NCBI GenBank assembly: GCA_012729395.1
Contig: JAAYDF010000198.1
Location: 1 to 48,741, forward strand
Direction: 5' to 3'
Length of the DNA: 48,741 nucleotides
Source of the DNA: Phycisphaerae bacterium
Lineage (GTDB): Bacteria > Planctomycetota > Phycisphaerae > UBA1845 > PWPN01
Shown here: positions 6,850 through 39,223 of the stretch, piece by piece
How positions within the stretch are numbered: the stretch's first letter is position 1
Layout: each line of letters starts with the position of its first letter
Notes under the pieces: generated by a model
Seen by the model: the letters and a program-made list of their open reading frames with translations, nothing else
Databases searched by the model: none
What the model was told of the DNA's origin: nothing
Program-made: the position numbers and the translations under genes

Positions 6850-7413
6850 ATGAAAGCGATGCGAAGATATCTCGGCGGAATGGGGATGATGCTGGCGATG
6901 AGTGCGAGCGTGATGGGCGGGCAGGCGATGACCCAGGTGTCGGCCAGCCACGGGAACCGGTCGGGTGACGGGGTAGCCTCGGCGATGGCCAACTACGAAG
7001 GTCAGGGCGGGCAGGGTATCGCCCGGACCCGTACTGAGACCGGCGACATCAATTTGGCTCGGGCGCTGGCGGTGGGCGTGGACCGCAACGGGATGGACAT
7101 CTCGTTCAGCCACGCGATCGCGGGACCGTTCGGGATTCTGCCGGCCTACGCGGGGACCTTCAACCTGAGCATCGGCCGGGACGGGAGCGTGGCGGGCAGT
7201 TACGGCGGTGCTTTGGCGAGCGGTGGTTTGGTTCGGTCGGCGGAGGCGGGTGGGGTGACCAGTTCGGGGCCGCACGGCAGCACCGCCCAAGCGACCGCGG
7301 GCGGCTCAGCCACCCCGGGAGGCAGCGTGCGGGCTCGGACCGACTCGTACAGCCGGCCCAGTCTGCGGAGCTTGCCTCGCCAGCCGGTGACCGTGATCAG
7401 GCGCGCCCGGTAG
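6850..7413 (+). CDS. Secreted Gly/Ala/Ser-rich protein, partner of the preceding repeat protein
   Basis: This 187-residue protein of unknown function has a Met-rich signal peptide (residues 1-25, ending MGGQA). The mature chain is rich in Gly, Ala and Ser, with strands such as 'GQGIARTRTETG', 'GTFNLSIGRDGS' and 'GGLVRSAEAGG'. The repeats are looser than in its neighbour. The tail is basic and ends VIRRAR; the neighbour also ends in a basic 'QVRR'. I chose this ATG over the in-frame one at 6751 because a GAGAGGAG lies just upstream and a signal peptide follows directly. The 70-bp spacing and shared composition suggest the two proteins work together outside the cell. Confidence 0.75.
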   Translation: MKAMRRYLGGMGMMLAMSASVMGGQAMTQVSASHGNRSGDGVASAMANYEGQGGQGIARTRTETGDINLARALAVGVDRNGMDISFSHAIAGPFGILPAYAGTFNLSIGRDGSVAGSYGGALASGGLVRSAEAGGVTSSGPHGSTAQATAGGSATPGGSVRARTDSYSRPSLRSLPRQPVTVIRRAR

Positions 7414-7453
7414 GGCGGTGCGGTGGGCTGAACAACCGAAGAGCGATGCGCAG

Positions 7454-7515
7454 GGCTCCGATCCGAGCGACCATGCGTCAAGGCGAAAGGCCGACGCAGA
7501 GCACGGGTCGGAGCC
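7454..7515. terminator. Nested inverted repeat, possible terminator or structured RNA
   Basis: GGCTCCGA (7454-7461) pairs with TCGGAGCC (7508-7515). Inside it GCGTC (7475-7479) pairs with GACGC (7493-7497) around an AAGGCGAAAGGCC loop region. The outer right arm is followed by TTTGGTTTT. It lies 40 bp after the stop of the secreted pair, where a transcript end is expected. The long loop is unusual for a simple terminator. The remaining gap up to the sulfatase (to 7683) shows a TATAGT at about 7630 but no convincing -35. Confidence 0.5.
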
Positions 7516-7683
7516 TTTGGTTTTGGCACTGGTGGCGGCATTTGCGTCGGCCCTTGCCGGTCTCCCGTGGGCGTCTTGCGAGGCCAGGGGAGCTGGGGCG
7601 GGCGCATGGTTCATGGTCTGGGTGTCCGTTATAGTCTCGGCGTGGTGAAGTGGCAGCCATCGGCACTTCTGTGAGGAACGATC

Positions 7684-9102
7684 ATGTCCATCTGTCGTCA
7701 GGGTCAATCCGCGAGTCGGGTTATTGTGGCCGGCTTGGCCGTTTGGGTGGCCTCGGCGGCGATCGGTTTGCCGGCGGCTCAGGGGCAGGAGCAGCCGGGT
7801 CGCAAGCCCAATATCCTTTTCATCTTCACCGACGATCAGCGGGCGGACACGATCGCCGCTCTGGGGAACCCGGCTATCCAGACACCGGCGTTGGATTCTC
7901 TGGCCCGCCGGGGTTTTGTGTTCAGCAACGCCTACTGTTTCGGCAGCAACTGCCCGGCGGTTTGTCTGCCGAGTCGGAATATGCTCCTCAGCGGTCGGAC
8001 TTACTTCCGATGGGAGGGGCCGCAAGCCTCTGCTGATCAGCCCAATTTGCCGGTCACCTTGAGGCAAGCGGGCTATGTGACCTACCATCACGGCAAGAAG
8101 GGCAACACCGCGCTGAAGATCCAGGAGAAGTTCGATGTCAACAAGTACGTCGCCGACGATGCGGATCGCAGAAGCGAGCCGGCGCTGGCGATCGTGAATG
8201 AAGCCATCGACTTTCTGAGGAACAGAAAGGATGATCGGCCGTTTCTGATGTATCTGGCTCTCGGCAACCCGCACGATCCGCGTGTTGCTCCGCAGTCCTA
8301 TCTGGATTTGTACGAGGGTAATCGGATTCCGTTACCGAAGAACTTCCTGCCAGTTCATCCGTTCAACAACGGCGAGATGGTCATTCGCGACGAGCTTCTG
8401 GCCGGGTGGCCGCGGACGGAGGGGGAGATTCGGCGCCATGTGCACGAGTACTACGCGGTTATCACCGCGATGGATCATCAGATTGGCCGCCTGCTGGGTG
8501 TGCTGGGGGATCTTGGGTTGGAGAAGGACACGATCGTGATCTTCTCGTCTGACAACGGGTTGGCGGTCGGGAGTCACGGGCTGATGGGTAAGCAGAGTCT
8601 TTACGAGCACAGTACGAAGGTGCCGTTGTTGTTTGCCGGGCCGGGGATTCCGCAAGGTCGCAGTGACGCTCTGGCTTATCTGTTGGATGTGTTTCCCACG
8701 ATCTGTCAGTTGGCCGGGGTTGACGTGCCCGCGGGCTTGGATGGTCTGGGACTCAAGCCGGTGATCGAAGGCCGGCAGGAGAAGGTCAGGAACCATGCGG
8801 TGTTCGCCTATCGAGATCTGCAGCGGGCGATTCGGGGATCTCGCTTCAAGTTGATCCGCTATCCGAAGATTGGCAAGACGCAGTTGTTCGATTTGCGGTC
8901 GGACCCGGATGAGTTGCGGGACTTGTCTGATGATGCTCGCTATCAGGAGCGGCAGGAACGGCTGATGCGGCGTCTTGCCGAGGAGTTGCGTCGGCTGGGT
9001 GACGAGGCTCCGCTGACGGTTGAGCCGCCGGAAGATCCCACGTTTACGCCACCGACGGGCGAGGCGTTGGAGAAGCTGCTCGCACCGTTCAAGGCGAACT
9101 GA
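7684..9102 (+). CDS. Type I sulfatase, secreted
   Basis: This 472-residue arylsulfatase-family enzyme hydrolyses sulfate esters, probably on a polysaccharide. A signal peptide covers about residues 1-35. 'NILFIFTDDQR' supplies the paired metal-binding aspartates (50-51). CLPSR at 94-98 is the C-x-P-S-R motif, where Cys94 is converted to formylglycine. 'SSDNG' and 'HGLMGKQSLYEHSTKVPLL' give the later metal and substrate-binding blocks. Length and motif order match the family, so it should be active once matured. No formylglycine-generating enzyme is in the window. An AGGAA precedes the ATG. The gene converges with the lipoprotein gene 37 bp downstream. Confidence 0.95.
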   Translation: MSICRQGQSASRVIVAGLAVWVASAAIGLPAAQGQEQPGRKPNILFIFTDDQRADTIAALGNPAIQTPALDSLARRGFVFSNAYCFGSNCPAVCLPSRNMLLSGRTYFRWEGPQASADQPNLPVTLRQAGYVTYHHGKKGNTALKIQEKFDVNKYVADDADRRSEPALAIVNEAIDFLRNRKDDRPFLMYLALGNPHDPRVAPQSYLDLYEGNRIPLPKNFLPVHPFNNGEMVIRDELLAGWPRTEGEIRRHVHEYYAVITAMDHQIGRLLGVLGDLGLEKDTIVIFSSDNGLAVGSHGLMGKQSLYEHSTKVPLLFAGPGIPQGRSDALAYLLDVFPTICQLAGVDVPAGLDGLGLKPVIEGRQEKVRNHAVFAYRDLQRAIRGSRFKLIRYPKIGKTQLFDLRSDPDELRDLSDDARYQERQERLMRRLAEELRRLGDEAPLTVEPPEDPTFTPPTGEALEKLLAPFKAN

Positions 9103-9139
9103 GGGCGGGTTGTACTGGCCGTGGGGGCATTGGGTGGCT

Positions 9140-9715
9140 TCAATCGGCGGTCTGGCGTTCGAACCACAAGTCGGGCCCGATGAGCCACGCGCCGCGCTCG
9201 CGGTGCAATGGAATCACGAGCAGGTACTCGGTTTCGCTGGAGGCGGATTTGCCGCGAACACGCACGAAAGCCTCCTTGCCGCTTTCGAGATTCTCACCGA
9301 TCACGGTTGCGGAGCCGGGCTCGAAGAGCCGGTACTTGTGTAGCCAGGAGTCCATGACCATCTCGACGGCCTGCTCGGTTTGCAGGTTATCAGCCAATCC
9401 TTGCACCACGAGAAGTTGTCGCATGGCGGCCATGGCGGCTTTGGGGTCGGCGAGGGCCTTGAGGTTGGAGCGGTCCTGCTCTTCCAGGGCTTTGAGGAGG
9501 ATCCGGACGACGTCGGAGGGGGCACTGGTGGCGGACAGGCCGGCCGGGTAGGTGGTTGGCGTCGTGGTTGTGGTGGGGGCGGGGGCGGTGGTGGCGGGCT
9601 GGGTATCGGGCGGTGGTGCGTCTTTGGGCCGTTCACAACCGATCAAGGTCCAGGAGAGAAGGGTGCCGCCCGTGAGAACACAGGCACTTATTCGCGAGGA
9701 AAACCGGCCGGTCAT
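9140..9715 (-). CDS. Hypothetical lipoprotein
   Basis: This 191-residue protein starts MTGRFSSR and has a lipoprotein signal ending in LIGC. A Pro/Thr-rich linker of about 35 residues follows, then a compact alpha/beta domain with helices around 'RILLKALEEQDRSNL' and strands such as 'EAFVRVRGKS' and 'EYLLVIPLHRERGAWLIG'. That strand pattern recalls small NTF2-like or DUF4878-like folds, but I cannot assign a family. I preferred the ATG at 9715 over the in-frame one at 9787 because the signal peptide begins there and a GGAG lies about 9 bp upstream. It is convergent with the sulfatase. Confidence 0.7.
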   Translation of the reverse strand: MTGRFSSRISACVLTGGTLLSWTLIGCERPKDAPPPDTQPATTAPAPTTTTTPTTYPAGLSATSAPSDVVRILLKALEEQDRSNLKALADPKAAMAAMRQLLVVQGLADNLQTEQAVEMVMDSWLHKYRLFEPGSATVIGENLESGKEAFVRVRGKSASSETEYLLVIPLHRERGAWLIGPDLWFERQTAD

Positions 9716-9970
9716 GAGCGATGCTCCGCGTTGGGCTCCAGTGATCTGCCGCAGGGCGAGAGGATGCCTCGCCCTCGGTTGGGTCATGATACCGGACTAT
9801 GGCGGCAGACCACAATATGCGGGCGGAGGTTGTGTCATGGCATTCCGGCGTATCCTTCATGGCTCGATTCACCGGTCGAGAATCGGGGTTGGTGATGCCG
9901 TATGCGTTTCTGGCACCTCTTGTGAGAGCGCCGCGGGGAGCTCTGGGTCGGCTGCGGCTTGGCTGAGCTC

Positions 9971-10264
9971 GCCGGTCGCCACGGGGGGCGACCGCTACGG
10001 GGTTGGCGTGATGCTCGCCGGTCGCCACGGGGGGCGACCGCTACGGGGCTGGCGTGGTGTTCGCCGGTCGCCGCGGGGGGCGACCGCTACGGTGGGCGTC
10101 CGTGTGGCACTGCCCTGTGAGCCGTGCATGTGTGCAGGGCTTCCTCGGCACCGGCCTTGCCACCAAGCACGCCCCGGTCGCCGCGGGGGGCGACCGCTAC
10201 GGGGCTGGCGTGATGTTCGCCGGTCGCCGCGGGGGGCGACCGCTACGAGGCTGGCGTGATGCTC
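9971..10264. repeat. Tandem array of 46-bp palindromic (REP-like) units
   Basis: Units start at 9971, 10017 and 10063, then after an interruption at about 10173 and 10219; the period is exactly 46 bp within each block. Each unit carries CGGTCGCC, a short loop rCGGGG, then GGCGACCG, so each can form an 8-bp-stem hairpin. GCTACGGGGYTGGCGTGATG follows, then TTCGCC or CTCGCC leading into the next unit. Copies vary at A/G in the loop and T/C downstream. The block between units 3 and 4 (about 10100-10172) is unrelated sequence. The same arms flank the longer palindrome at 2602-2680. The array sits beyond the 3' end of the zinc-ribbon membrane protein gene. The remaining intergenic part, 9716-9970, shows no gene. 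Confidence 0.9.
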
Positions 10265-10274
10265 GCTGGCGTTG

Positions 10275-11231
10275 TTACTCGATGGGCTTGGTTGCTGAGT
10301 TGTGCGCTCGGATGGTCTGCGTCAGCATGGAGACGCACGCCAATGAGGTGGTCAGGGTGGCGACGTAGGTCAGGAGCCCCAGCAAGACAAGAAGTACTTG
10401 GCAGCAGGGGGCCTGATAGCCAATAAGCGATGTCATGGCGTTGAGTGGAGCTGGCGTCCAGAGAGCATGGACAGCAAGCAGCCCGATCAGGATGGCGGCC
10501 AGGAGCATCCAGAGGGCGAGCAAGGCGGTAGAGACTTTGGCAGCACGCAGCACGGTTTCGTTGCGGGCTCGCCGGCCGAGTCCCGAAATGGTTCGGAGGC
10601 TGAGTATACCGGCCGCGCCGCATATCAGGAATGACAGGGATATTGTGAGCGAGGAGAACGCAAGGATGCCGCAGACAAAGAGGAAGCCATCGATCAGAAG
10701 CAGGGCGATGATGGCCGATGGTGGCCAGGGACTCGGTTCGGCATGCCTGGTGGCGAGGGGGGCGCTGATGCCCATCAGGCCACAACCGAGCAGGAGCAGG
10801 GCTAACGCAGAGCCCCCAACTCCGAGGACTGGGGCACCAACGCACAATCCGCCAAGAACGACAATCGGTGCCACATGCCCCACGGCCAGCATGATCGCCG
10901 CCGCCCGGAGACCTTTTAGCCCGTTGAGGGGCGCGTAGCGCAGTTCACTGGACCGGAGGCTGTCGATGACCTCGTGGCCGCATTCCGGGCATCGCGAGTT
11001 GATGGGCATTGTCCGCAGGTTGTAGCCGCAATGCACGCAGGAGACATCGGTCGCGACGGTCAGATCGGTTTGGCGGATGGTCTCCAGTGCAATGGAGGCC
11101 CCAATTGGCTGGCCGCAGTGGGGGCACACGTCGTGGAGTTTCGCACCTCGCAGGTTGCCGTCGCAGGCTACGCAGGTGATGTCCGCGTCCAGCGTTGCCG
11201 CGGTGTCATTGCAGTGGGTGTCCGTGTTCAT
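10275..11231 (-). CDS. Membrane protein with two N-terminal zinc ribbons
   Basis: This 318-residue protein opens with two CxxC...CxxC zinc-ribbon units: 'CVACDGNLR...CPHCG' and 'CVHCGYNLRTMP...CPECG'. Five or more hydrophobic segments follow ('AAIMLAVGHVAPIVVLGGL', 'GGSALALLLLGCGLMG' and later ones), so the ribbons face the cytoplasm on a polytopic membrane domain. The 'C-GYNLR-CPECG' ribbon on membrane proteins is a frequent planctomycete theme of unknown function. The ATG at 11231 was chosen because a GGAG is placed upstream; an in-frame ATG at 11267 would add 12 residues. The 3' end abuts the palindromic repeat array. No partner gene suggests its role. Confidence 0.75.
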   Translation of the reverse strand: MNTDTHCNDTAATLDADITCVACDGNLRGAKLHDVCPHCGQPIGASIALETIRQTDLTVATDVSCVHCGYNLRTMPINSRCPECGHEVIDSLRSSELRYAPLNGLKGLRAAAIMLAVGHVAPIVVLGGLCVGAPVLGVGGSALALLLLGCGLMGISAPLATRHAEPSPWPPSAIIALLLIDGFLFVCGILAFSSLTISLSFLICGAAGILSLRTISGLGRRARNETVLRAAKVSTALLALWMLLAAILIGLLAVHALWTPAPLNAMTSLIGYQAPCCQVLLVLLGLLTYVATLTTSLACVSMLTQTIRAHNSATKPIE

Positions 11232-27354: not shown

Positions 27355-30300
27355 TCACTTGGGTGGATCTGAGACAAGGACGCAGAGTCGTAGCCAGCCG
27401 GGCGCGTTGGCGACATTGAGTCGGGGGTTGAGGAATCCGCCGTCGAGATCCTTGGGTTGGGATGCGACTCGGCTGACGACTTCGGATTGGATCTGGCCGG
27501 TGAGCCAGTCGTCAAGCCGACCGCTGCCGCGCAGGGCGTAGACGAACAGGGCGTTGGAGACTTTGAGGTCTCGGGCGCCTGGGTATCGCATGGATTGGAG
27601 GGCGGCGGCGGGCTCGCCGGTGGCGATCTGCCAGGGTACTCGCCAAAGCTGCGCGGGGTTTGCGGGCTGCTGAGGTGGCGGCCCGGCGCTGACCATGGTC
27701 CAAACCGAGATGTGCAGGTTTGGGTTCTGCCCGCCGGTGCACAGGCCTGCCACATTATAGAGGGCTTCGGGGACTTGGACCTTGCCTTGCACGGTTTGTT
27801 CGGTTCGAGTTTCGGCGTCGGCGGTGATGTCGGGTCGCGCTCCCGGGAAGGGCAGATGCGGGAGGGCGAGGAAACACATGGGCCCGTCGGGTGCGATGAC
27901 GATGCCGAAGGAGCGGGTTTGCGATTTGAAGAAATCGGCTTCGCCGACAACGGGGCCGAGCAGGGTGGCTCCGAGTGTTCGGCCGACCTCGGCGTCGGCT
28001 TGCTGGACCATTCGGGCCGTCGTTTGGCTCAACAGCCGTGCCGGTCCAAGGCGTACGTAGCGAGCGTAGACGGCTTGGGAGCGGTTCTCATCGGTGTCGG
28101 TGGGGGTCAGCCAGTAGATGGCGTGGACGTGGCGTTGGCCCCAGAAGTACTCGATGAAGCGGCACGGGCGTACGAAGATGGCGTTGTCGGTGCTGCGTCC
28201 AGTGGAGGACAGATCCTGCCGGGCTTTCTGGGTCCAGTCTTCGAGTGACTGGGCGCCACTGCCGCTCTCGTTGGACATCCACTTGAGGCGGGCGATTTGT
28301 TGCAGGTACTGCCAAGCCTTGGCGCTGCCGCCGGGCACATCGACCGGCTGACCGTCCTGTACGGTGACATTGGCGGCGGCCAGATCGTTGATGATTTCGC
28401 GTTCGAGCTCTTGGCGTTGAACCCACCATTGCAGGTACTGCTGGCGATCGGTGGGTGTCTGGGCCTTGAGGTGTTCGATGAGTTTGGCGGAGACGGTCTC
28501 CGCGGGCTTCTCTGTGCCGATCTCGTCGGTTTTGAGGGCCAGTGGCGGCAGTGTTTCGCCCCATGGGTAAGCGAGTTGGCTGGTCACCTGCTCCGGAGTT
28601 GCGGTGATGCGCAGCGGCTCGCCCAGCAGTTCGGGTTCGCCTTCCGCCTCGCCCAGCCAGGTCGCGAAGGCTCGCAGCCAAGTGAGGTTCCCCTGTGCCT
28701 GCTCCAGCAGGGCGGGTACCAGTGCGGCCAAGACCTCGGGTGGCCGGACCTCGATTCGCTCGCTCTCGATTGTCAGGGTGTGGCGTTGAGGGGCTCCGAT
28801 CTCGATCGGCATGCGCTGCTCGCGGAGCCGTTCTTTGACTGCCGGCGGGAAGTCCAACCGCAGGGTTACCGCCTCGCGATTCTCGATGGCGGACACATCG
28901 GCGAGGCTCCAGGTCAGTTCCCGACTCTGGCTGGCCGCGGGAAACTCGACTTTGCCGACTTCGCGACCTTCGCCGGAGTCGAACAGGTGCACCTGGAGCG
29001 GCTCGGCGATTGTGCCGTCGTCCGCGACGTCGAGGCGGATGCCTATCTTATGCTCGGCAAGCGTGGAGCGTTTCGTGCGGCTGTCCGGGTGGACGAAGGC
29101 TACGGTGGCCCGGTCTTCGTCGATCACCTCGATGATGATTGGGTCGGATTTGAGGTTCTCATAGGCGGCGTCCTGGCTTTCGCAGCGTAGCCGAATCGTG
29201 GCCGTGTGGCTGCCGTCCACCGTCCGATCGCGGATCGCGGCGATGGTGATGGTCTGCGGACTGGACCAGTTGTCGGTGGTGAAGTTGAGCCTGTTCGGGG
29301 TGATTCGGACCTGGTCGGCCGCGTCGTGTTCGAGGCTGATCTGGACGGGCGCGGTGGGGTGCGAAGTGAGCTGCAGCGTAGTCGTGTCCTCCTCCCCTTC
29401 GCGGATCTGCATACGTGATTGGCCGCAAGTGAGCCCGGCATGGTCGTCATCGACGATCGCGACGGTGGCGGTGGCGGGTTGTTCGAGACGGGCCCCGGTC
29501 GCGGACGTCGCCTGGACGGTGACGAACTTGCCGGGATTGACGATCTGGTCGTTTACGGCCTCGATGGTCAGCTCGTGTTCACTCTGCCCGGCCCGCAAGT
29601 CCACGGTCTGGTCTTGAGAGAGGCCCGATACGGTGAAGTGCTTGCCCGGCTCTGCGGTAGATCCCTGGAAGTCAAAGGCGATGGTCACGGCTTCACTGGT
29701 CTCGCCGGCGAGTTTGAGCGTGATGGTCGCCTTTCCTCCCGCCTCGGCGATGCGTGGCGGGCTGGGATTGATGTTCATAGTGAGGACGACCGGCGGGAGG
29801 GTTGTCGGCGCGTGTCCTTCGGCGGCGGTCGCGGTGGCGGGTGATACGTCAGTGGGTGTGGGCAAGTCTGTCCGTGGGGCTGGGTCCGTCGGACGGGGTG
29901 AGACGCTGGTGGTGTCGGTTTGTCCGGGCGAGGGGGGCTGCCGGCTCAGCCACCAGTAACCACCGGCGCCGGCCGCGAGGACGACGGCAAGCCCGGCGGC
30001 GGCGAGTTGAAGCTGCCGAGCGCGGCGGTTTCGCTGTCGTCGGGCATGATCCTGGGCCGCTTCGGTCAGTGCTTCCTGTGCCTTCTGCTGGATGCGGCGG
30101 GCTTCGGCGTGTAGATCCTGGACATAGGGAACCGCCAATACGGCCTGAGCGCAGTCGATGGCTCCCCGGTGGTCGCCGGCGGCGTGCGCTTCGTTAGCCG
30201 CACGGAGATCACGGCTCGCCTTGGACTGCCGGGCGGCAATGTCCTTTTGGGTGGCCTGGATCTCCTCAGTCAGGCTTTTGACGCGGTTGCGGATGTCCTC

Positions 30301-33300
30301 GTTCCCGTGGTGCCTGACCGCCTCCGCCAGTCGGAGGGCCTCGTCGAGGTTCTCCAACTCGGCGGGGTCGTTGCGTTTGCGTTGCTCGAACTGTGCTCGT
30401 GCGAGCTTGAGATCGCTTTGAGCTTCTTCGATATCGAGGGTTTTGAGGAAGCTCTGGAGCGCGGCGGCCATATCGGCGGCGGTGGGGTAACGTTCTTGAG
30501 GATCGTCGGCGATTGCCCGTTCGCAGATTCGGGCCAGTTCGGGTCGAACGTTGGGTGCGGCTTTGGCTAGAGGCTTGTAGTGCGCCCGCAGTGTATTCAG
30601 CAAGGTCTGGGAGATCGACGCCACCGAGAGGGCGGTCCGGGCGGCGGCATCGCCGGGCTCGTGGAAGGGGGGCCGGCCGGCGAGCAGCTCGTAGAGCACG
30701 CAACCCAGGGCGAAGATGTCAGCCCGCTGATCGACCTGGTCGCCCATGGTGGTGATGACTTCGGGTGCGATGTAGCCTGGGGTGCCGCAGAGCCCGGTCT
30801 TGGCTCGCTGGTCGGTCATGGATCGTATGTACGCCAACCCGAAGTCGATCAACCAGGGGCCTTCGCCTTCCGCTTCGCCGAGGTAGATGTTCTGCGGCTT
30901 GACGTCGCGGTGCAGTACGCCGTGCTGGTGGGCATAGGCCAGGGCCTCCGCCACGGCGATGAGGATCTCGGCTGCCTGCCGTTCCGTTGGCTTGTGTTTT
31001 CGCGTGTACGAGGCCAGGTCCTGGCCTCGGATGTAGTTGGTATCGAAGTAGCGGCGGCCCTCGATGATGCCCGAGCTGTTGATGTGCATGATGTGGGGAT
31101 GGCTCAGCCGGGCGACGGCCTTGGCTTCGTTTTCCAGGGCCTTGTCCAGCTCGGGACTGATAGCCGCGGTGGGGGTCAGCTTGAGGGCGACCTCGCGGTC
31201 CAGGTCCAGGTCTCGGGCCCGGTAGACTTCGCCCATTCCCCCCCGTCCGAGCGACTCGATGATCTCGTATTTGTCGCCGAGGCGGTCGGAAGGGGCCAGG
31301 GGCTGAATCTGCGGGTCGACGACTACATCGCTGCTGCGGTCGTCCACGAAGTTGTCGATCGTGGTCAGTGATACCTGCAGCCACTGGGGCAGGCTGGATT
31401 TGGATTCGACGAGTTCACCGCTGTCACCGGCGAGTTGTGCGCGTTCAGCTCGCCGCCGCAGGTGCTTCCGGATGCCAGCGATGAGCACCTCTGCTTGTCT
31501 GTTTTTGGCTCGCTTGCGAAGTAGAGTGGCCACTTGGGCTTGCCGGCTGCCGGGCTCGCTCTGGGAGAGGATCTGCTCGAAGGATCGCAAGGCGTTGGAG
31601 AACTGCCCCTGGTCCGCCAGGGCCTGGGCTGATTCCAGCGGGGGCAGGAGATCGATCAACTGCCGCGCTGTTCTGGCGAGGGCATCTTCGGTATGCGGGT
31701 TCGCCAGAACATCTTCTGTTAATCGCCTGGTGGTGACGAGATCTCCCAATTGGAAGCTGGCCAGGGCCCGCTCGTAGTCCGACGCGGTTGCCTCGCGTGC
31801 CTGCTTCTCGGCCGCCACCAGGGCGTCGGTCTGCTGGATGAGCTGCTCGCTCCGATCGCGCAAGGCGAGATCCGCATGGTCGGTTTCGAGCACCTGTCGG
31901 GCGGCGAGGACCACGGCGTCGAACTGCCTGCGTTTGAGCATTTCCTCGGCTTCGTCGAGACGTTGCCGGAGTTGCTCGCGTTCCCGTTCGAGCCGTTCTT
32001 CGATCCCGCGAAGGAGTTCCTGGGCCGACTCGACGATTGTCGGGAACTCGGAGCGCACGAGCAGCTCGGCCACGTGCCGAGCCTTGATGAGGTGGCCCTG
32101 TTCGGCCTCGGACTGCGCCCGGCCGAGATCCTGCTCTTGTCGTTCGAGTTGGCGGATGTTCTGATCGACAAGGTCGAAGACCTGCTCGCGCAGTTGAGCG
32201 ATACGTCCGGCCAGGTCGCGAGCGCGTTCTTGCTGTGCGGGCGACAGGTGGTGGATGGCCACGACCTCTTCGATGATGGCGTCGGCTCGGCTCAGGCTGG
32301 TTTCATCGAGCATGCGCGGCGGCTGATTGATTGTCGCCTCGACGGCGTCGAGCAGTGCTTCGGCTCGCTGGCGGGCCTGGACCTGGTGCTCGCGCTGCTC
32401 GCTGATTTGCGATTCCTGATCGTCGACGCGGGTTCGCAGCGTGCGGGCCTGGTCGGCCAAATCGGGGTGGGCTTCCTGTCGCAGGATCGGTTCGAGCAGG
32501 TTGCGTGCTCCGTCGAAGTCCTGATCGGCGAGCAGGTCGGCGGCTTGTCTGAGTTGTCCGCGCAGCTCCTCGCGAAGCCGCTGGCGGTCTTCCTCCTTGC
32601 TGCGATGCTGGGTGAGTTGCGTGGCCAGGGCGGCTGCTTCGTCGTCGATATCGATGAGCCACTTGGGGTGTTGGTCGCGCTGGCGCAAGCCCTCATCGAG
32701 CTTGTCCCACTCGCCGTCGTCGCGGAACTGGCGCAGGCGGGCCAGCCAGGCATGTGCGGTCTCGCGGATCCGCTCGATGTCCGGATCAAGCTCGGCGCGG
32801 CGGTGGGCCAACGTTTGCCACAGGGCCAGGCTTTGTTGATACAAGGTGGGCGGCAAGGCTTGCGGCCCGCTCGATTGTTCAAGGTAGCTTTGCAGAGAGG
32901 CGATGGCCGCGTCGGCCTCGGGGAGGCCGAGGGGTTGGTTGCCGGTCAGGGCGGCTTCGATTTCCTGTAGACTGCGGTGGGTGTTCTGAGCCGCGGCGGC
33001 CCGCTGCCGGATGGTTTCGACGCAGCGGTCCAGCTCTCCGGGCAGGTTCGCGGGACGGGGTAGAGCGATCAGCTCGCTTGCGGCCGTCTCCCAATTCTCG
33101 CCGGCCATGTTCCGGAGGTTCTTGGCCGACGCGAGGAGGAAGCCCGCTGTTTCCGTGACGTTGGCGGGCATGTCGGGCGCCTCGGCCAGTAGCCTGATAT
33201 CGCTTGCCACCCGCTCGTCAGCCAGTTCCTCCCAACTTGCCTGGGAGAGCCGGTCCGCGATGAGCTCCAGTCGTCGGCCCATGATTTCGTCGGGCTCGAC

Positions 33301-34191
33301 GGGCTTGATCCCGGCGGCTTTGAGTCGCTTGACGATGTCCGGAGCCGACGGTCGCCCTTGGGGAATGCGGTCGATCATCTCCCAGAGCAGCTCGCGCCAT
33401 ACCTTGACGGTCGGTTCCTCCGACTCGCGCAGGTCGGGTCGCAGGGTGTTGAACGGCACGGGAGCGCCGAAGGCCATGGTCTCGGCCAACTCGGCACTGC
33501 GCAAGGCCTCCGGCTCGTTGTAGAAGTAGGGGTGGCGATGCTCGGTCAGGAGATAGAGCAGGAATCCGGCCGCGACCACGTCTCCGCTGCGTTCGAAGCT
33601 GCGGTAGAGTTGTGTGCCGTACTTCTCCGGGTCGATGAAGGCACAGATGCGGTCGTCGCGATCAGGCACGTTGGGGTCAAGGATCTCCCAGATTCCGGTG
33701 GCGCCTTCGATGAGGGTTCCGGCTTTGGCGGCCTGGACGGCGAGGTTGAGGAACCGCTGCTCGCCCAGACCGTCGCAGATGGCGGGCCCGAATCCGAAGT
33801 CGGCGACCTTCTCGACGCCGTTGAGGTCTCGGAGCAAGACGCCGGGGCACAGGCCGCCGTGGACCACGGGTTGGCGGGCCTGGGTGGAGTGTGCCGCCCG
33901 CAGCCCATCGAGCAGAGCGATGGACATGCGCCAGATTGTCTCCCGGTCGGCGCCGGGGGTGGTGGGGTCGAAGAGGTCGGCCAAGGGCAAGGGGGCGGCC
34001 GGCTCGTGCTCCACGAAGAAGCAATGATCGTCTTCCTGCAGCGTGCCCACGAGTTGGAGGACATGGGGCGATCGCGAGCCGAACTGCTTCTGGGTCTCGA
34101 TGGCGGCATCGAGTCCCTTGGCCAATCGCGCACGAGCCTGTTCGTCCAGGTCGGGGGGTTTGAGTACGACTCGCCTGTACAACTGGCTCAT
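27355..34191 (-). CDS. Giant membrane Ser/Thr kinase: pseudokinase, helical region, kinase, Calx-beta ectodomain
   Basis: This 2278-residue protein has several parts. Residues 1-295 are a kinase-like domain without glycine loop and with HGGLCPGVLL in place of HRD-KP-N, but with DFG at 131-133: a pseudokinase. Residues 300-950 are helical and charged with TPR-like pairs. Residues 975-1245 are a complete Hanks kinase: GRGGMGEVY (982-990), Lys1004, HRDVKPQN (1094-1101), DFG at 1116 and APE at 1142. A second helical stretch, about 1250-1390, precedes the single membrane helix at about 1393-1415. Outside are a Pro/Thr linker, two Calx-beta-like domains (about 1470-1690) and some 590 unassigned residues. 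The canonical kinase should phosphorylate cytoplasmic partners. The ATG follows AAAGG. Confidence 0.9.
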   Translation of the reverse strand: MSQLYRRVVLKPPDLDEQARARLAKGLDAAIETQKQFGSRSPHVLQLVGTLQEDDHCFFVEHEPAAPLPLADLFDPTTPGADRETIWRMSIALLDGLRAAHSTQARQPVVHGGLCPGVLLRDLNGVEKVADFGFGPAICDGLGEQRFLNLAVQAAKAGTLIEGATGIWEILDPNVPDRDDRICAFIDPEKYGTQLYRSFERSGDVVAAGFLLYLLTEHRHPYFYNEPEALRSAELAETMAFGAPVPFNTLRPDLRESEEPTVKVWRELLWEMIDRIPQGRPSAPDIVKRLKAAGIKPVEPDEIMGRRLELIADRLSQASWEELADERVASDIRLLAEAPDMPANVTETAGFLLASAKNLRNMAGENWETAASELIALPRPANLPGELDRCVETIRQRAAAAQNTHRSLQEIEAALTGNQPLGLPEADAAIASLQSYLEQSSGPQALPPTLYQQSLALWQTLAHRRAELDPDIERIRETAHAWLARLRQFRDDGEWDKLDEGLRQRDQHPKWLIDIDDEAAALATQLTQHRSKEEDRQRLREELRGQLRQAADLLADQDFDGARNLLEPILRQEAHPDLADQARTLRTRVDDQESQISEQREHQVQARQRAEALLDAVEATINQPPRMLDETSLSRADAIIEEVVAIHHLSPAQQERARDLAGRIAQLREQVFDLVDQNIRQLERQEQDLGRAQSEAEQGHLIKARHVAELLVRSEFPTIVESAQELLRGIEERLEREREQLRQRLDEAEEMLKRRQFDAVVLAARQVLETDHADLALRDRSEQLIQQTDALVAAEKQAREATASDYERALASFQLGDLVTTRRLTEDVLANPHTEDALARTARQLIDLLPPLESAQALADQGQFSNALRSFEQILSQSEPGSRQAQVATLLRKRAKNRQAEVLIAGIRKHLRRRAERAQLAGDSGELVESKSSLPQWLQVSLTTIDNFVDDRSSDVVVDPQIQPLAPSDRLGDKYEIIESLGRGGMGEVYRARDLDLDREVALKLTPTAAISPELDKALENEAKAVARLSHPHIMHINSSGIIEGRRYFDTNYIRGQDLASYTRKHKPTERQAAEILIAVAEALAYAHQHGVLHRDVKPQNIYLGEAEGEGPWLIDFGLAYIRSMTDQRAKTGLCGTPGYIAPEVITTMGDQVDQRADIFALGCVLYELLAGRPPFHEPGDAAARTALSVASISQTLLNTLRAHYKPLAKAAPNVRPELARICERAIADDPQERYPTAADMAAALQSFLKTLDIEEAQSDLKLARAQFEQRKRNDPAELENLDEALRLAEAVRHHGNEDIRNRVKSLTEEIQATQKDIAARQSKASRDLRAANEAHAAGDHRGAIDCAQAVLAVPYVQDLHAEARRIQQKAQEALTEAAQDHARRQRNRRARQLQLAAAGLAVVLAAGAGGYWWLSRQPPSPGQTDTTSVSPRPTDPAPRTDLPTPTDVSPATATAAEGHAPTTLPPVVLTMNINPSPPRIAEAGGKATITLKLAGETSEAVTIAFDFQGSTAEPGKHFTVSGLSQDQTVDLRAGQSEHELTIEAVNDQIVNPGKFVTVQATSATGARLEQPATATVAIVDDDHAGLTCGQSRMQIREGEEDTTTLQLTSHPTAPVQISLEHDAADQVRITPNRLNFTTDNWSSPQTITIAAIRDRTVDGSHTATIRLRCESQDAAYENLKSDPIIIEVIDEDRATVAFVHPDSRTKRSTLAEHKIGIRLDVADDGTIAEPLQVHLFDSGEGREVGKVEFPAASQSRELTWSLADVSAIENREAVTLRLDFPPAVKERLREQRMPIEIGAPQRHTLTIESERIEVRPPEVLAALVPALLEQAQGNLTWLRAFATWLGEAEGEPELLGEPLRITATPEQVTSQLAYPWGETLPPLALKTDEIGTEKPAETVSAKLIEHLKAQTPTDRQQYLQWWVQRQELEREIINDLAAANVTVQDGQPVDVPGGSAKAWQYLQQIARLKWMSNESGSGAQSLEDWTQKARQDLSSTGRSTDNAIFVRPCRFIEYFWGQRHVHAIYWLTPTDTDENRSQAVYARYVRLGPARLLSQTTARMVQQADAEVGRTLGATLLGPVVGEADFFKSQTRSFGIVIAPDGPMCFLALPHLPFPGARPDITADAETRTEQTVQGKVQVPEALYNVAGLCTGGQNPNLHISVWTMVSAGPPPQQPANPAQLWRVPWQIATGEPAAALQSMRYPGARDLKVSNALFVYALRGSGRLDDWLTGQIQSEVVSRVASQPKDLDGGFLNPRLNVANAPGWLRLCVLVSDPPK

Positions 34192-34628: not shown

Positions 34629-36197
34629 ATGGCACAGCAAGGCGCAGGTCTGCCCATGACCAGCAAGTGGGATCCCGAGAGACTCCAAAAAGAAGTTGAG
34701 GTTCTCAAGGAGCTCAACACCCGGCCGTTCCTGGGCAGGGTCCGCGGCTACTTGAGCCTGACCGGGCCGGGGTGGATGCAAAGCGCCATGACCCTGGGGG
34801 CGGGGAGTGCGGTGGCCTCGGTGGTGGCGGGGGCCTTCTACGGCTATCAGTTGTTGTGGGTGCAGCCGATCGCCATGCTGATGGGCATCGCGATGATGTC
34901 CGCCCTGGGCAACATTGTGCTGACCAAACGCGAACGGGCTTACTCGATCGTCTCGCGCGAGTTGCATGTCGGCCTGGCGTTCCTGTGGGCACTGGCGACG
35001 TTGGTGGCGACGATCATTTGGCACTTCCCGCAGTACGGGTTGGCGGGAGCGGCGATGTGGGATGCCGCCAACACCCTGGGTATCTCCAACCCGGTCGATG
35101 CCAGCGGCGAGGTGACCTCCCGGTTGCCCGAGTACCTGGTGAAGTTCGCCGTGGGGTTTGCGGTGCTCTTCGTGAGCATCAATGTGGTTTGGAGCTACGG
35201 CTCCAAGCCCAAGGGTATCAAGATCTACGAGACTTTCCTGCGGTGGGTGATCCGCCTGGTGATTCTCGCCTTTTTGATCGTGGTGGTGCGGCAGTTCATG
35301 CGCGGCGGGCTCGACGTGGTAGGTATCATCAAAGGCTTCACCACGTTTCAGATTCCCGAGGAGAACCGACAGCAGGCGATCACGACCATCCTGGGGGCGA
35401 TCGGAGCGGCCGTGGGGATCAACATGACTTTCCTGTATCCCTACTCGATTTTAGCCAAGGGCTGGGGGCCGCATCACAAAGGGCTGGCCCGATTCGATCT
35501 GTTCGGCTCGCTGCTGCTGCCGTACGTCGTGCTCACGTCGCTGATCATGATCGCGATGGCCAGCACGCTGCACCAGCCGCCGTTCGGGACCAACCTGGCA
35601 GCCAATCCGGGACTTACCGAACTGACGCCGACCGACGCCGCCCAGAGCCTCGCGCCGCTTCTGGGCGAGTACGGCGGGCGGTTGATCTTCAACCTGGGAT
35701 TCTTCGGCATGGCCTGCGGGGCGATCACCGCTCACATGGTGGTTTGCGGCTTCACGGTGTGTGAGATGTTTGGCCTGGAATACACGCCTGGCCGGTACAA
35801 GCTCTTCAGTCTCTTGCCGGCTGTTGGTGTGTTGGGCGTGGTGTCCCCCGCGCCTTTGTGGCTGCCGATCGCGGCGTCGGCCATCGCGTTCTCGATGCTG
35901 CCCATCGCCTACATCGTCTTCCTGATCCTGCAGAACAAACGCAGTTACTTGGGCGATGCTGTCGGGAAGGGATTGCGGCGGACGGTGTTCAATTTCATTC
36001 TGATTCTGGCTGTGGGCATGTCGCTTATCGGCGCGTACATTCAGCTCCACGACCGGGTCATCAAGCCGATCCAGAAGATGTGGGCTCCGCCGGCGGTGGA
36101 GAAGCCCGCCGATCCGGCGCCGGCGGTTGTCCCGGGGGTCGACACACCGGCCGTCGTCCCCGAGGCAGAGCAGCCCGAGGCGGAGGAGAGCCCATAA
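34629..36197 (+). CDS. Nramp-fold transporter lacking the metal-binding motifs
   Basis: This 522-residue polytopic membrane protein has about 11 hydrophobic segments. It opens with 'LTGPGWMQSAMTLGAGSAVAS' (44-64), which aligns with the first Nramp helix; 'YGYQLLWVQP' continues that alignment. The essential DPGN of Nramp is replaced by GAGS (57-60). The sixth-helix MPH block is replaced by 'GINMTFLYPYS' (about 259-269), so the usual Mn/Fe ligands are gone. The fold is convincing, but substrate transfer from Nramp is not justified; another ion, an organic solute or a sensor role is possible. A soluble Pro/Ala/Glu-rich tail covers the last 45 residues. GGAGG precedes the ATG. It is divergent from the giant kinase. 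Confidence 0.85.
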   Translation: MAQQGAGLPMTSKWDPERLQKEVEVLKELNTRPFLGRVRGYLSLTGPGWMQSAMTLGAGSAVASVVAGAFYGYQLLWVQPIAMLMGIAMMSALGNIVLTKRERAYSIVSRELHVGLAFLWALATLVATIIWHFPQYGLAGAAMWDAANTLGISNPVDASGEVTSRLPEYLVKFAVGFAVLFVSINVVWSYGSKPKGIKIYETFLRWVIRLVILAFLIVVVRQFMRGGLDVVGIIKGFTTFQIPEENRQQAITTILGAIGAAVGINMTFLYPYSILAKGWGPHHKGLARFDLFGSLLLPYVVLTSLIMIAMASTLHQPPFGTNLAANPGLTELTPTDAAQSLAPLLGEYGGRLIFNLGFFGMACGAITAHMVVCGFTVCEMFGLEYTPGRYKLFSLLPAVGVLGVVSPAPLWLPIAASAIAFSMLPIAYIVFLILQNKRSYLGDAVGKGLRRTVFNFILILAVGMSLIGAYIQLHDRVIKPIQKMWAPPAVEKPADPAPAVVPGVDTPAVVPEAEQPEAEESP

Positions 36198-36496
36198 TCC
36201 GCTGCTCTTCGTGTCATGGAAGGCGTCCAAGCGCGTCGAGAGCGTGGTCTCGGGCGGTTATCCATCTTGCCCGGCCTTGCGGCCTTGGTGATCGCGTGGT
36301 TGGCGGGGTGTACATTTTCCGTTTGCTCTTGCCGGTCGTTGAATCTTATGTACATGAGTAGGGTTGCCGCCACTGGGCCTCGTTGGAGGCCTTGGTGCGC
36401 GTCAGGCTGATCCGCCGCGCCCGGGTAGCGGAATGAACGTGGACGGGCCATGGGTGCCGGTCTGCGCGGGTGCGCACTCGTTGTAGGGGAATAGGC
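36198..36496. other. Intergenic region before the PEP-CTERM gene
   Basis: This 299-bp stretch has no convincing gene. A small frame at 36216-36410 (64 residues) has a hydrophobic segment ending LAGC, like a tiny lipoprotein, but has no ribosome-binding site and a nondescript tail. ATGTACAT near 36348 is a short palindrome. Confidence 0.3.
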
Positions 36497-37216
36497 ATGA
36501 TTCGAGCACGGATTCTCTGTGGATGCTTGGCTGCGTTTGGGTTGCTGGCTGTCGCCGTTGAGAAGGTGGGCGGCGCGCCGATTCTGACCATCGACTTGCT
36601 GCCTGGGGCCGGCTTGTCGACTGAGAATACCGGCGCCAGCGGGCGGCTCACGCTCGCGTTCTACCGGCACAAGGAAATCGATTTTCTGTCACTGACCATC
36701 GAGAACACGACGCCGATATCGCTCGGCTCGAAGCTGACGGCTGTGGGGATCGAGATGCCGACGTTGTTTCCGAGTCGGCCGGTTTTCGCGGCCGACGGTG
36801 TGGGCACGTACTTCAAGTACATGGAGTACAATGTCTCGGTGCCGCCGGGATGGCTCAACGCGCCGGGGGGCTACGATCTCGCGTTGACCAGCGACCGCAA
36901 CTTCCTTGGTGGAGGCGTTCACGGGGCGCCCGGTGCGGGTGAGTCGCACAAGGTGACTTTGGCGTTGGGCAACACGGGGTACACGCCGGAGGAGCTGTCG
37001 AGCGCGTTTCTGAGCTACTATGAGGATCTTGATGGTCCGATCGGCATCGCCCGTTTTCAGTCGGTAGGTTCAAGAGGGAGAGACTCGGACCGGGTGATCA
37101 GCACACGAGTAATCGCCGAAGAGGTGATACCTGAGCCGGCCACGCTGATGTTTCTGATAGTGGGGGGAGCCGTGCTGGCGGTCCCGGGGCGATGGGGAAA
37201 CCGAGTACGCAGGTGA
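36497..37216 (+). CDS. PEP-CTERM sorted secreted protein
   Basis: This 239-residue protein has a signal peptide (about 1-26). A beta-rich body of unknown family follows ('ILTIDLLPGAGLSTENT', 'FLSLTIENTTPISLG'). The classic sorting tail at the C-terminus is 'VIPEPATLMF', a hydrophobic helix and the basic 'RWGNRVRR'. PEP-CTERM proteins are exported, processed by an exosortase and often linked to extracellular polymer. No exosortase lies in the window. The ATG at 36497 is preferred over 36470 because GGGGAA lies upstream and the signal peptide begins there. It precedes the FHA-cyclase on the same strand by 240 bp. Confidence 0.85.
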   Translation: MIRARILCGCLAAFGLLAVAVEKVGGAPILTIDLLPGAGLSTENTGASGRLTLAFYRHKEIDFLSLTIENTTPISLGSKLTAVGIEMPTLFPSRPVFAADGVGTYFKYMEYNVSVPPGWLNAPGGYDLALTSDRNFLGGGVHGAPGAGESHKVTLALGNTGYTPEELSSAFLSYYEDLDGPIGIARFQSVGSRGRDSDRVISTRVIAEEVIPEPATLMFLIVGGAVLAVPGRWGNRVRR

Positions 37217-37398: not shown

Positions 37399-37456
37399 GA
37401 TTCGACAACTGAGCGGTCAACGCATTGACGGCTGAATCAGAGAGTACCTGGTGGCC

Positions 37457-39223
37457 ATGGAAAAGGAACAGAGCACGCGCGCGGGTATCTGGCTTGTTGC
37501 CCGGCAGGGCGAGCAAGTTGTCGGCCGGTTTCCAGTGCCCGAGGGTGTCGATCTCGTGCTGGGGGCGTCGCCGCAGGCCGACTGTGCCCTGAGTACGGAG
37601 CGTTACCTCAGTCGTCGCCACGTCCAACTGCACTACAGCGAGGAACAACTGCGGGTCGAGCGGTTGCCGAGCGCCTCGAACCCGATCATGTACCGCGGGT
37701 CGAGTGCGGAGCGGTGTGCCTTGCGGCCGGGCGATTACTTCGTGATTGGCACGACGGTGTTTCAGCTGGAGGGCCCATCGATCGGGTCGTCCGGCTTGTC
37801 AACCAGCCGGGGCGAGTCTCAACCGACGGACGTCTTCACCTTGGGTGCTGCCGACGTGCAAGTGCGGGCGGACGTGACGGATCGGTTGCGTCTGCTGGAT
37901 CTGATGAAGCTTCCCGAGGTGCTGCGGACGCGAAGCCGCAAGGATTTTTACCTGTACGCGTGCGGCGGCCTGCGGATGGCGACGGGTGCCCGGTACGTCC
38001 AGGTTCTGGGATTCGAGGAGGGGCATGCGCGGGTGTTGTGTGAGGATGCGGGGCTGGACCGTGGGCCGGCCAGGTCGCAGAGCCGATCGCTGGTCGAGGC
38101 GGCGGTGGCGGCGTCTCCCCATCCGGTAACGTATTGCTGGCGGAAGGAGGCTTCGTCGAACGATCTGATGGCGACGGCCTGCGAGGGCATCGACTGGGCG
38201 GTCTGCTGTGCCGTTCCGGTGCCTGGCGAGGCGCCGCTGTTGTTTTACATCGCGGGCGACGGTAACGGTTCGCGGCCGGGCGGTGGGGCAACGCTCGACC
38301 TGCGGGATACCGCCCGGCTTGTCGGGCTGGTTGGCGACGCGATCATGCGTGCGGTGGCGATGCAGAAGTTTGAGGAGTGGCAAGCCAAGCTGGGCCACTT
38401 CTTCTCCGGCAAGCTGGTCACCAAGATCCTCGAGTCCGAAGACCCCCGGCAACTGGAACCGCAGATCCGCGAGTCGACGGTGATGTTCTTCGACATTCGC
38501 GGCTTCTCGCTGTTGACGGAGGGTAACCTGGAGCGGATTCTCGCCTACCAGGGCGAGCTCAAGCGGGCGATGACCGCCATGACTCAGTGCGTCTTCGATC
38601 ATGACGGCGTGGTCATTCGCTACATGGGGGACGGCATCCTGGCCTGCTGGAACGTGCCTTACGATTTGCCGGACCACACCGAGCAGGCCTGTCTGGCGGC
38701 CCTGGGCATGACCGCGTTGCTTGGCGAGGTGACGGCGGGCTGGACGTGTGGCATTGGGCTGGGGGTAGGGGATGTCGTGGCCGGCTCGCTGGGCTCGGAG
38801 CAGGTTTACGCGTACGACATTCTCGGCCCGGTGGTCAATCAGGCCAGCCGGGTCGAGGGCATTACCAAGGCGGTGGGCGTGCCGATTCTGGTTACAGAGG
38901 ACGTGGCCAAGGCGGTCTCGCCGGAGCGCATCCTGACCCGTCGTGTCGCCCGTTTTCTGCCGGTGGGCGTGGAGACGGAGGTTGATCTGTATACCATCGA
39001 GGCGACGCCGACCGACGCCGCTGCTCGCGAGACGATCGAGCACCGCCACCGGTTACATGCTCAGGCGTTGACGGCGTTCGAGCAGGGCGACTGGGAGACT
39101 GCCTTTGATATTCTGCATGCCATCGTGAAGGAGGACGCCGCCGCCCGGTATGTGTACACGTTGGCCTTGCAGCGCAAGCCGCCGCGGGATTGGCGCGGCG
39201 TGGTCGAGATGAGCAGCAAGTAG
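37457..39223 (+). CDS. FHA-GAF-class III nucleotidyl cyclase
   Basis: This 588-residue cytoplasmic protein is predicted to make a cyclic nucleotide, probably cAMP. The FHA domain (about 10-105) includes 'LSRRHVQLHY', which reads phosphothreonine. The middle (about 145-310) is GAF-like. The class III catalytic domain follows: Asp346 ('FFDIRGF') and Asp392 ('MGDGILACW') are the metal ligands, and Asn461 and Arg465 ('NQASR') stabilise the transition state. Asp454 is the adenine-specifying residue, but the partner lysine is Arg388. The FHA domain suggests control by a Ser/Thr kinase; the giant kinase lies 3.3 kb away. The ATG at 37457 was preferred over the GTG at 37451. The C-terminal 70 residues are a TPR-like helical segment. 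Confidence 0.9.
   Translation: MEKEQSTRAGIWLVARQGEQVVGRFPVPEGVDLVLGASPQADCALSTERYLSRRHVQLHYSEEQLRVERLPSASNPIMYRGSSAERCALRPGDYFVIGTTVFQLEGPSIGSSGLSTSRGESQPTDVFTLGAADVQVRADVTDRLRLLDLMKLPEVLRTRSRKDFYLYACGGLRMATGARYVQVLGFEEGHARVLCEDAGLDRGPARSQSRSLVEAAVAASPHPVTYCWRKEASSNDLMATACEGIDWAVCCAVPVPGEAPLLFYIAGDGNGSRPGGGATLDLRDTARLVGLVGDAIMRAVAMQKFEEWQAKLGHFFSGKLVTKILESEDPRQLEPQIRESTVMFFDIRGFSLLTEGNLERILAYQGELKRAMTAMTQCVFDHDGVVIRYMGDGILACWNVPYDLPDHTEQACLAALGMTALLGEVTAGWTCGIGLGVGDVVAGSLGSEQVYAYDILGPVVNQASRVEGITKAVGVPILVTEDVAKAVSPERILTRRVARFLPVGVETEVDLYTIEATPTDAAARETIEHRHRLHAQALTAFEQGDWETAFDILHAIVKEDAAARYVYTLALQRKPPRDWRGVVEMSSK

Follow-up and report, generated by a model that had tools for sequence, protein, structure and literature searches.

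A clade of Nramp-fold carriers without the canonical metal motifs as candidate importers of sugar-derived solutes

Departures from the canonical Nramp (SLC11) substrate site have been described before. In the accessible part of a January 2026 preprint (PMC12873925), Nramp-related proteins are reported to carry diverse residues in place of the DPGN and MPH motifs and to be paraphyletic to the canonical Nramps, with some characterisation available only for the NRMT-like group and for the 'G-motif 3' group that contains MntG. An Nramp outgroup is also described in the available passages of PMC9606685, PMC10606218 and PMC4072509, the last of which cites the view that it bridges carriers of non-metal substrates and carriers of metals. 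EleNRMT is reported to transport Mg2+ in hydrated form although it lacks the canonical site (PMC8806188, as excerpted), and YcsG/MntG of B. subtilis, encoded within a catabolic (5-oxoprolinase) operon, is reported to be an Mn2+ importer (PMC10448178, as excerpted). Since the Nramp-related class and the outgroup are already in print, loss of DPGN and MPH is of a known kind, a point that the first-pass annotation of the gene described here did not make.

A second group of known systems is provided by sugar catabolism. As far as the available text of PMC10066097 goes, levoglucosan loci combine Gfo/Idh, PF01261 and ROK genes with an ABC or MFS carrier, and PF06439 is associated, in the corresponding part of PMC9007349, with the hydrolysis of 3-keto-disaccharides by Caulobacter and Bacteroides. 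A literature search, with most subscription journals outside its scope, returned no paper tying an Nramp-type protein to Gfo/Idh or 3-keto-sugar operons. The Nramp-related proteins of PMC12873925 resemble the carrier clade described below in matching PF01566 without either metal motif and in lying outside the canonical Nramps, but no sugar-operon link for them was found in the accessible text. The present clade is, as far as we have seen, uncharacterised. Its new element is the sugar-enzyme gene context, and not the motif loss itself.

The window, by which we mean the whole stretch of 48,741 nucleotides from a Phycisphaerae bacterium that was analysed, encodes a 522-residue carrier with a match to one Pfam family only, Nramp (PF01566, E 6e-21, 75.3 bits versus a gathering score of 29.8). 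Three NCBIfam Mn/Fe Nramp models gave weak matches, all of them below cut-off (25.8 against 430, 22.1 against 50 and 19.7 against 272.5). The first-pass annotation had anticipated that automatic pipelines would label the protein a Mn/Fe transporter; this holds for Pfam by virtue of the family name, but not for NCBIfam. The acidic soluble tail that it had noted is present, with eight D/E and one K/R among the 37 residues, and in the predicted model this segment is probably disordered. The positions of the carrier, its substrate-site helices and the surrounding reading frames are given in Table 1.

Table 1. Coordinates of the carrier gene, its principal features and neighbouring reading frames within the window
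Feature	Position	Strand	Basis and remarks
Nramp-related carrier CDS, 522 aa	34629..36194	+	ATG start; stop codon 36195-36197
Helix 1 region, residues 46-77 (GPGWMQSAMTLGAGSAVASVVAGAFYGYQLLW); substrate loop G57-A-G-S60 replaces DPGN	34764..34859	+	Alignments; model helix break 56-57
Helix 3, residues 114-149; conserved W131, H132, Q135, Y136	34968..35075	+	Family alignment, model
Helix 6, residues 247-277; loop V262-G-I-N265 replaces VMPH; conserved MTFLYPY next	35367..35459	+	Alignments, model
C-terminal Pro/Ala-rich acidic tail, residues 486-522	36084..36194	+	Composition; low pLDDT
2278-aa ORF upstream of carrier	27355-34191	-	By eye: protein-kinase-domain-like, repeats, Calx-beta-like stretches
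248-aa ORF downstream of carrier	36470-37216		No Pfam match; C-terminus PEP-CTERM-like by eye
Adenylate/guanylate cyclase-domain ORF	37451-39223		Pfam; weak FHA-like (Yop-YscD_cpl) N-terminal match

Local alignment of helix 1 to DraNramp and to human DMT1 and NRAMP1 places SIAYMDPGN over SAMTLGAGS with no gap, the D, P, G and N of the canonical motif corresponding to G57, A58, G59 and S60. In helix 6, GATVMPH of DraNramp lies over GAAVGIN, so that M, P and H correspond to G263, I264 and N265, and a two-residue insertion follows GIN before the next conserved stretch. The same placement was obtained when the carrier was aligned jointly with 56 PF01566 proteins encoded in genomes of its order and phylum. 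Both canonical motifs are thus absent, and neither an acidic nor a sulphur ligand is left at the aligned metal positions. In the canonical Nramps, helix 3 carries acids of the proton pathway and helix 9 carries arginines. Alignment of helix 3 to these proteins requires a gap; the conserved central residues of this helix are all non-acidic. The flanking matches cited in the first-pass annotation are correct in that helices 1 and 6 align with Nramp, but the stretch GYQLLWV lies directly after helix 1 (helix 1b/2) and not in helix 6.

The replacements are shared by the protein family. Among 84 aligned family sequences, G263 and N265 are invariant, as is Q135 of helix 3; G57 is found in 81 of 82, G59 in 82 of 83 and S60 in 74 of 83, while W131, H132 and Y136 are present in 83, 72 and 79 of the 84, respectively. 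Because the family conserves the GAGS and GIN positions, chance or a pseudogene can be excluded as their origin, and conservation across the 84 sequences likewise rules out a decayed gene. Judged from the alignments, GAGS and GIN represent a conserved design rather than decay.

An AlphaFold2 model, calculated with 68 of the 84 family rows as the alignment, has a mean pLDDT of 89.4 and a pTM of 0.87. Helix breaks are predicted at residues 56–57 of helix 1 and 262–265 of helix 6, which are the two LeuT-fold substrate loops. Since these breaks fall at GAGS and GIN, neither DPGN nor MPH can be brought to the site by a different alignment, and a misalignment concealing the motifs is ruled out by the agreement of alignment, family and model. 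The carrier is therefore predicted to have an Nramp (LeuT-type) fold with altered motifs at the substrate site. This agrees with the first-pass description of an Nramp-fold transporter without the two motifs, and with its view that the sequence does not support Mn/Fe transport.

Comparison with solved structures gave the best match to canonical DraNramp (6d91; Z 37.5, 2.5 Å rmsd over 390 residues, 18% identity), although the carrier lacks DPGN and MPH and lies outside the canonical clade. EleNRMT (7QIA) follows with a Z-score of 32.6 over 380–381 residues and 18% identity, and a model of YcsG/MntG (9a52) with 31.2 and 14% identity. The top match outside the Nramps is AgcS (Z 27.2), and SLC7A10, AdiC, CHT1 and CodB are also found below the Nramps. 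The predicted site is lined by glycine, amide, hydroxyl and aromatic residues, with no conserved acid in the loops of helices 1, 3 and 6, and would appear more suitable for a neutral organic solute than for a divalent ion in dehydrated form.

Relatives were sought in 84,980 bacterial and archaeal genomes, and at least 568 were found, with up to 68% identity to the window carrier. The best 80 of these come from Verrucomicrobia, Kiritimatiellales, Planctomycetota, Aminicenantes, Acidobacteriota, Bacteroidota (Alistipes) and a few other groups. Of 61 genomes from the carrier's own family and order, 11 gave a match at E <= 0.001, in some cases only a weak one to a canonical Nramp or a different PF01566 type, and a search of plasmids gave a single weak match (Haladaptatus, 26%). 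All 68 family rows that were scanned match Pfam Nramp at E <= 0.001. The genome of the window encodes three PF01566 proteins, namely the window carrier, a paralogue of the same family (C219, 38% identical) and a protein with a GPGS-type helix 1 (C283). DPGN is absent from all three, and this genome thus has no canonical Nramp.

In a tree of 75 proteins, as had been suggested in the first-pass annotation, the family falls outside the canonical, NRMT and GPGT clades: its 30 rows are set apart from all others by a branch with support of 100/100, and the 10 canonical rows form a separate clade, also with 100/100. The NRMT-type (5), GPGS (12), GPGT (4), GAGD (8) and GSGE (3) rows, which carry motif labels chosen in this analysis, each form one clade, and the canonical, NRMT-type, GPGS and GPGT clades group together with support of 97/90. 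Only the support values of the larger clades were used in reading the tree. The positions of the single rows L139 and L159 were not used because their branches are very long and their placement may be false. L159 presumably resembles the MntG type (label GVSH_MntG), but it had no match among PDB sequences, so the tree contains no verified YcsG relative. Membership of the window protein (P0001) in the canonical Nramps or in NRMT is ruled out by the separate clade together with the motifs of helices 1 and 6; the NRMT-type rows (L117–L119, L121 and L122) have DAGG in helix 1 where P0001 has GAGS.

Besides the GxGS/GIN family, at least nine types of helix 1 and helix 6 motif occur under this single Pfam name among PF01566 proteins of Planctomycetota (L112–L160): DPGN/MPH, DAGG, GPGS, GPGT/VPY, GAGD, GSGE, GTGD, GTGS and GVSH. 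One genome from the class of the window organism contains a GAGS-type and a GGGS-type member back to back (L170, 9405–12795), and the L141 gene adjoins another family member oriented away from it.

It could be argued that the carrier still moves a divalent cation, Mg2+ or Mn2+, in the manner of NRMT or YcsG/MntG, with a largely hydrated ion bound without acidic ligands and the metal supplied to nearby isomerases or dehydratases. The fold shared with DraNramp and EleNRMT agrees with this, as do the reports, in the sections available, of Mg and Mn transport by NRMT and YcsG/MntG in spite of their lacking the canonical site (PMC8806188, PMC10448178), and the genome of the window has no canonical Nramp that would otherwise serve. 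NRMT has a reshaped substrate site like that of the carrier but, according to the excerpted text of PMC8806188, keeps the helix 1 aspartate within DxxG-TxxA/T, at the position that is G57 in 81 of 82 relatives; the carrier has GAGS and GIN and belongs to a separate clade. YcsG/MntG, although likewise Nramp-related and encoded in a catabolic operon, differs in its neighbours and in its reported Mn2+ import (PMC10448178, in part). The genome also encodes two FeoB and two ZnuA-type metal importers.

Some NRMT members, but not all, have an Mg (M-box) riboswitch upstream of the gene. No metal riboswitch was detected in 18 loci of the family, some with short upstream DNA, and the only hit at gathering score was a tRNA. 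On this evidence, and on that of the gene neighbourhood described below, we consider a divalent-cation substrate unlikely.

The first-pass annotation had also called for inspection of gene neighbours in related genomes, and these point to the metabolism of carbohydrate derivatives. Genes were called by length and amino-acid make-up, and 84 loci were asked for genes touching the carrier. Left out before counting were L043 and L079, which share a contig with L023 and a region with L024 respectively, L051, in which the caller had joined the carrier and another ORF into one, and L062 and L084, in which it had missed the carrier; L024, a truncated copy, was retained. Pfam scans covered 40 of 41 upstream and 45 of 48 downstream same-strand adjacent genes, the missing ones being upstream in L107 and downstream in L028, L061 and the window itself. 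Among the matches listed, the commonest family is Gfo/Idh/MocA (8 of 40 upstream, 7 of 45 downstream), and PF01261 TIM barrels account for six upstream and two downstream. The other families listed include ABC ATPases (5), RF-1 (4), tRNA synthetases (3), ThuA and URO-D, the RF-1, ABC and tRNA synthetase matches falling in syntenic groups of close relatives. The pxpABC 5-oxoprolinase genes to which YcsG/MntG is linked do not appear among the families listed (25 of 32 and 25 of 37) for these 85 adjacent genes.

Gfo/Idh and PF06439 (3-keto-disaccharide hydrolase) genes are common in the genome of the window, with 62 and 25 matches respectively (the former over cut-off), and neighbour controls therefore matter. 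When profiles derived from the loci were applied, 24 of the 89 same-strand genes lying within 300 bp were assigned as Gfo/Idh or xylose-isomerase-like TIM barrels, versus 9 of 312 genes at least four places away (odds ratio 12.4, Fisher p 1e-10, relatedness ignored). Taking one representative per 65% cluster (23 clusters) the counts are 5 of 21 versus 1 of 95 (p 7e-4), and per 55% cluster (7 clusters) 3 of 8 versus 0 of 44 (p 0.0025). A Gfo/Idh or TIM-barrel gene lies within 1.1 kb in 22 of 83 family loci, compared with 1 of 48 loci for other PF01566 types, of which 24 have full flanks of 1.5 kb. In two additional family members that turned up in the control set, L147 and L148, the carrier is immediately followed by a Gfo/Idh gene, as confirmed by Pfam for L148. 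Sugar-derivative enzymes are thus enriched beside relatives of the carrier.

Several counts speak against reading this context as evidence for a sugar-type substrate. The 24 neighbours are spread over 19 of the 84 loci, leaving 65 with no adjacent same-strand Gfo/Idh or TIM-barrel gene, and the linkage is present in 6 of the 23 clusters. Both gene families are abundant in the phyla of the relatives. The window gene itself stands alone, with no Gfo/Idh or TIM-barrel neighbour, and its closest relative among the matches listed (L032) has no such partner on the same strand; nearby on the opposite strand are a TIM-barrel gene and one resembling pectate lyase.

The most informative loci belong to Bacteroidota. 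One Alistipes locus (L098) has the order SusC-like (TonB-plug), SusD, 3-keto-disaccharide hydrolase, short ORF, Gfo/Idh, carrier, TIM barrel; a second (L102) has 3-keto-disaccharide hydrolase, TIM barrel, Gfo/Idh, carrier, TIM barrel; and L103 has SusC-like, SusD, 3-keto-disaccharide hydrolase, heparinase II/III-like lyase, short ORF, TIM barrel, carrier. The downstream TIM barrel of L098, the Gfo/Idh of L102 and the TIM barrel of L103 were assigned with our own profiles. A ROK gene lies upstream of the carrier in L048. Enolase-superfamily (MR_MLE), Oxidored_FMN, DAO and/or DUF993 genes surround it in L163, L164, L166 and L167, not all of them in each locus. The carrier is the sole protein with at least six predicted helices in most of the gene runs checked; a second polytopic protein occurs in L044 and L041, and some lie farther away in L039 and others. 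The arrangement resembles that of levoglucosan and 3-keto-sugar operons, in which Gfo/Idh and PF01261 genes, in some cases with PF06439 or ROK, surround one carrier gene, but the levoglucosan carrier is of ABC or MFS type, as far as the source extends, where the family loci have PF01566 (PMC10066097, PMC9007349).

The sugar-type oxidoreductases among these neighbours argue against a metal substrate. Enolase-superfamily and xylose-isomerase-like enzymes, however, commonly require Mg or Mn, and a metal supplier could therefore also sit beside them.

The substrate might instead be an organic solute other than a sugar, such as an amino acid, amide or small carboxylate, in line with the earlier 5-oxoproline proposal for YcsG. 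In LeuT-fold carriers, amino-acid carboxylates are bound by glycine-rich helix 1 loops; the nearest folds below the Nramps are those of amino-acid and amine carriers, and beta-eliminating lyase and M42 peptidase genes lie downstream of the carrier in L042. Function does not follow from a common fold, however, and the recurrent neighbours are Gfo/Idh, PF01261, PF06439, SusC/SusD and ROK. We regard a substrate of this kind as quite improbable.

Loss of transport altogether, leaving a membrane sensor or scaffold, would accord with the solitary window gene, its acidic tail and the disappearance of the known ligands. Strong conservation throughout the carrier fold, including the substrate loops and the helix breaks, makes this very hard to sustain, as does the placement of the relatives in catabolic gene runs, mostly as the sole polytopic protein.

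We therefore lean, with somewhat better than even confidence, towards import of a sugar-derived organic solute by the clade. The protein would be an inner-membrane Nramp-fold carrier in which the metal site is replaced by a neutral pocket lined by glycines and amides, formed by G57-A-G-S60, N265 and Q135 together with the conserved aromatic residues W131 and Y136. A small carbohydrate-derived solute, possibly a keto-sugar, sugar acid or cyclitol, would enter by alternating access and feed cytoplasmic Gfo/Idh/MocA dehydrogenases and xylose-isomerase-like enzymes. The organic and sugar-like nature of the substrate and the inward direction of transport are inferred, and the window gene, lacking a sugar-type neighbour, would presumably act as its relatives do. 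The carrier is an oddity of an expected kind, whose gene context yields a clear, testable prediction.

A broader proposal, which we hold at close to even odds and only tentatively, is that a wide bacterial Nramp (SLC11) clade acts as an inner-membrane keto-sugar or sugar-acid permease, and not as a metal transporter, in operons for glycan degradation of the Planctomycetes-Verrucomicrobia group, Acidobacteria and Bacteroidota, where it would take the place that elsewhere belongs to an ABC or MFS carrier. On this view, the metal-carrying Nramps could have emerged inside a superfamily whose substrates also include organic solutes. If sugar derivatives are indeed carried, the Pfam annotation named after Mn/Fe would mislead for hundreds of genomes, given the number of relatives, and would conceal a candidate permease for 3-keto-sugar pathways. 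A living organic-solute member of the Nramp family would also make the origin of the metal carrier within the LeuT-fold superfamily testable.

Other neighbours recur in subsets of the loci. The paralogue in the genome of the window (L027 on C219, about 7093–11082) is flanked by two genes that look URO-D-like by eye, the upstream one having no Pfam match at 1e-5. L026 and L029 partly share these neighbours, and in L087 the gene immediately upstream is assigned to URO-D by Pfam. In Acidobacteriota, L104 and L107–L110 have in common a downstream ABC-transporter ATPase gene that adjoins the carrier.
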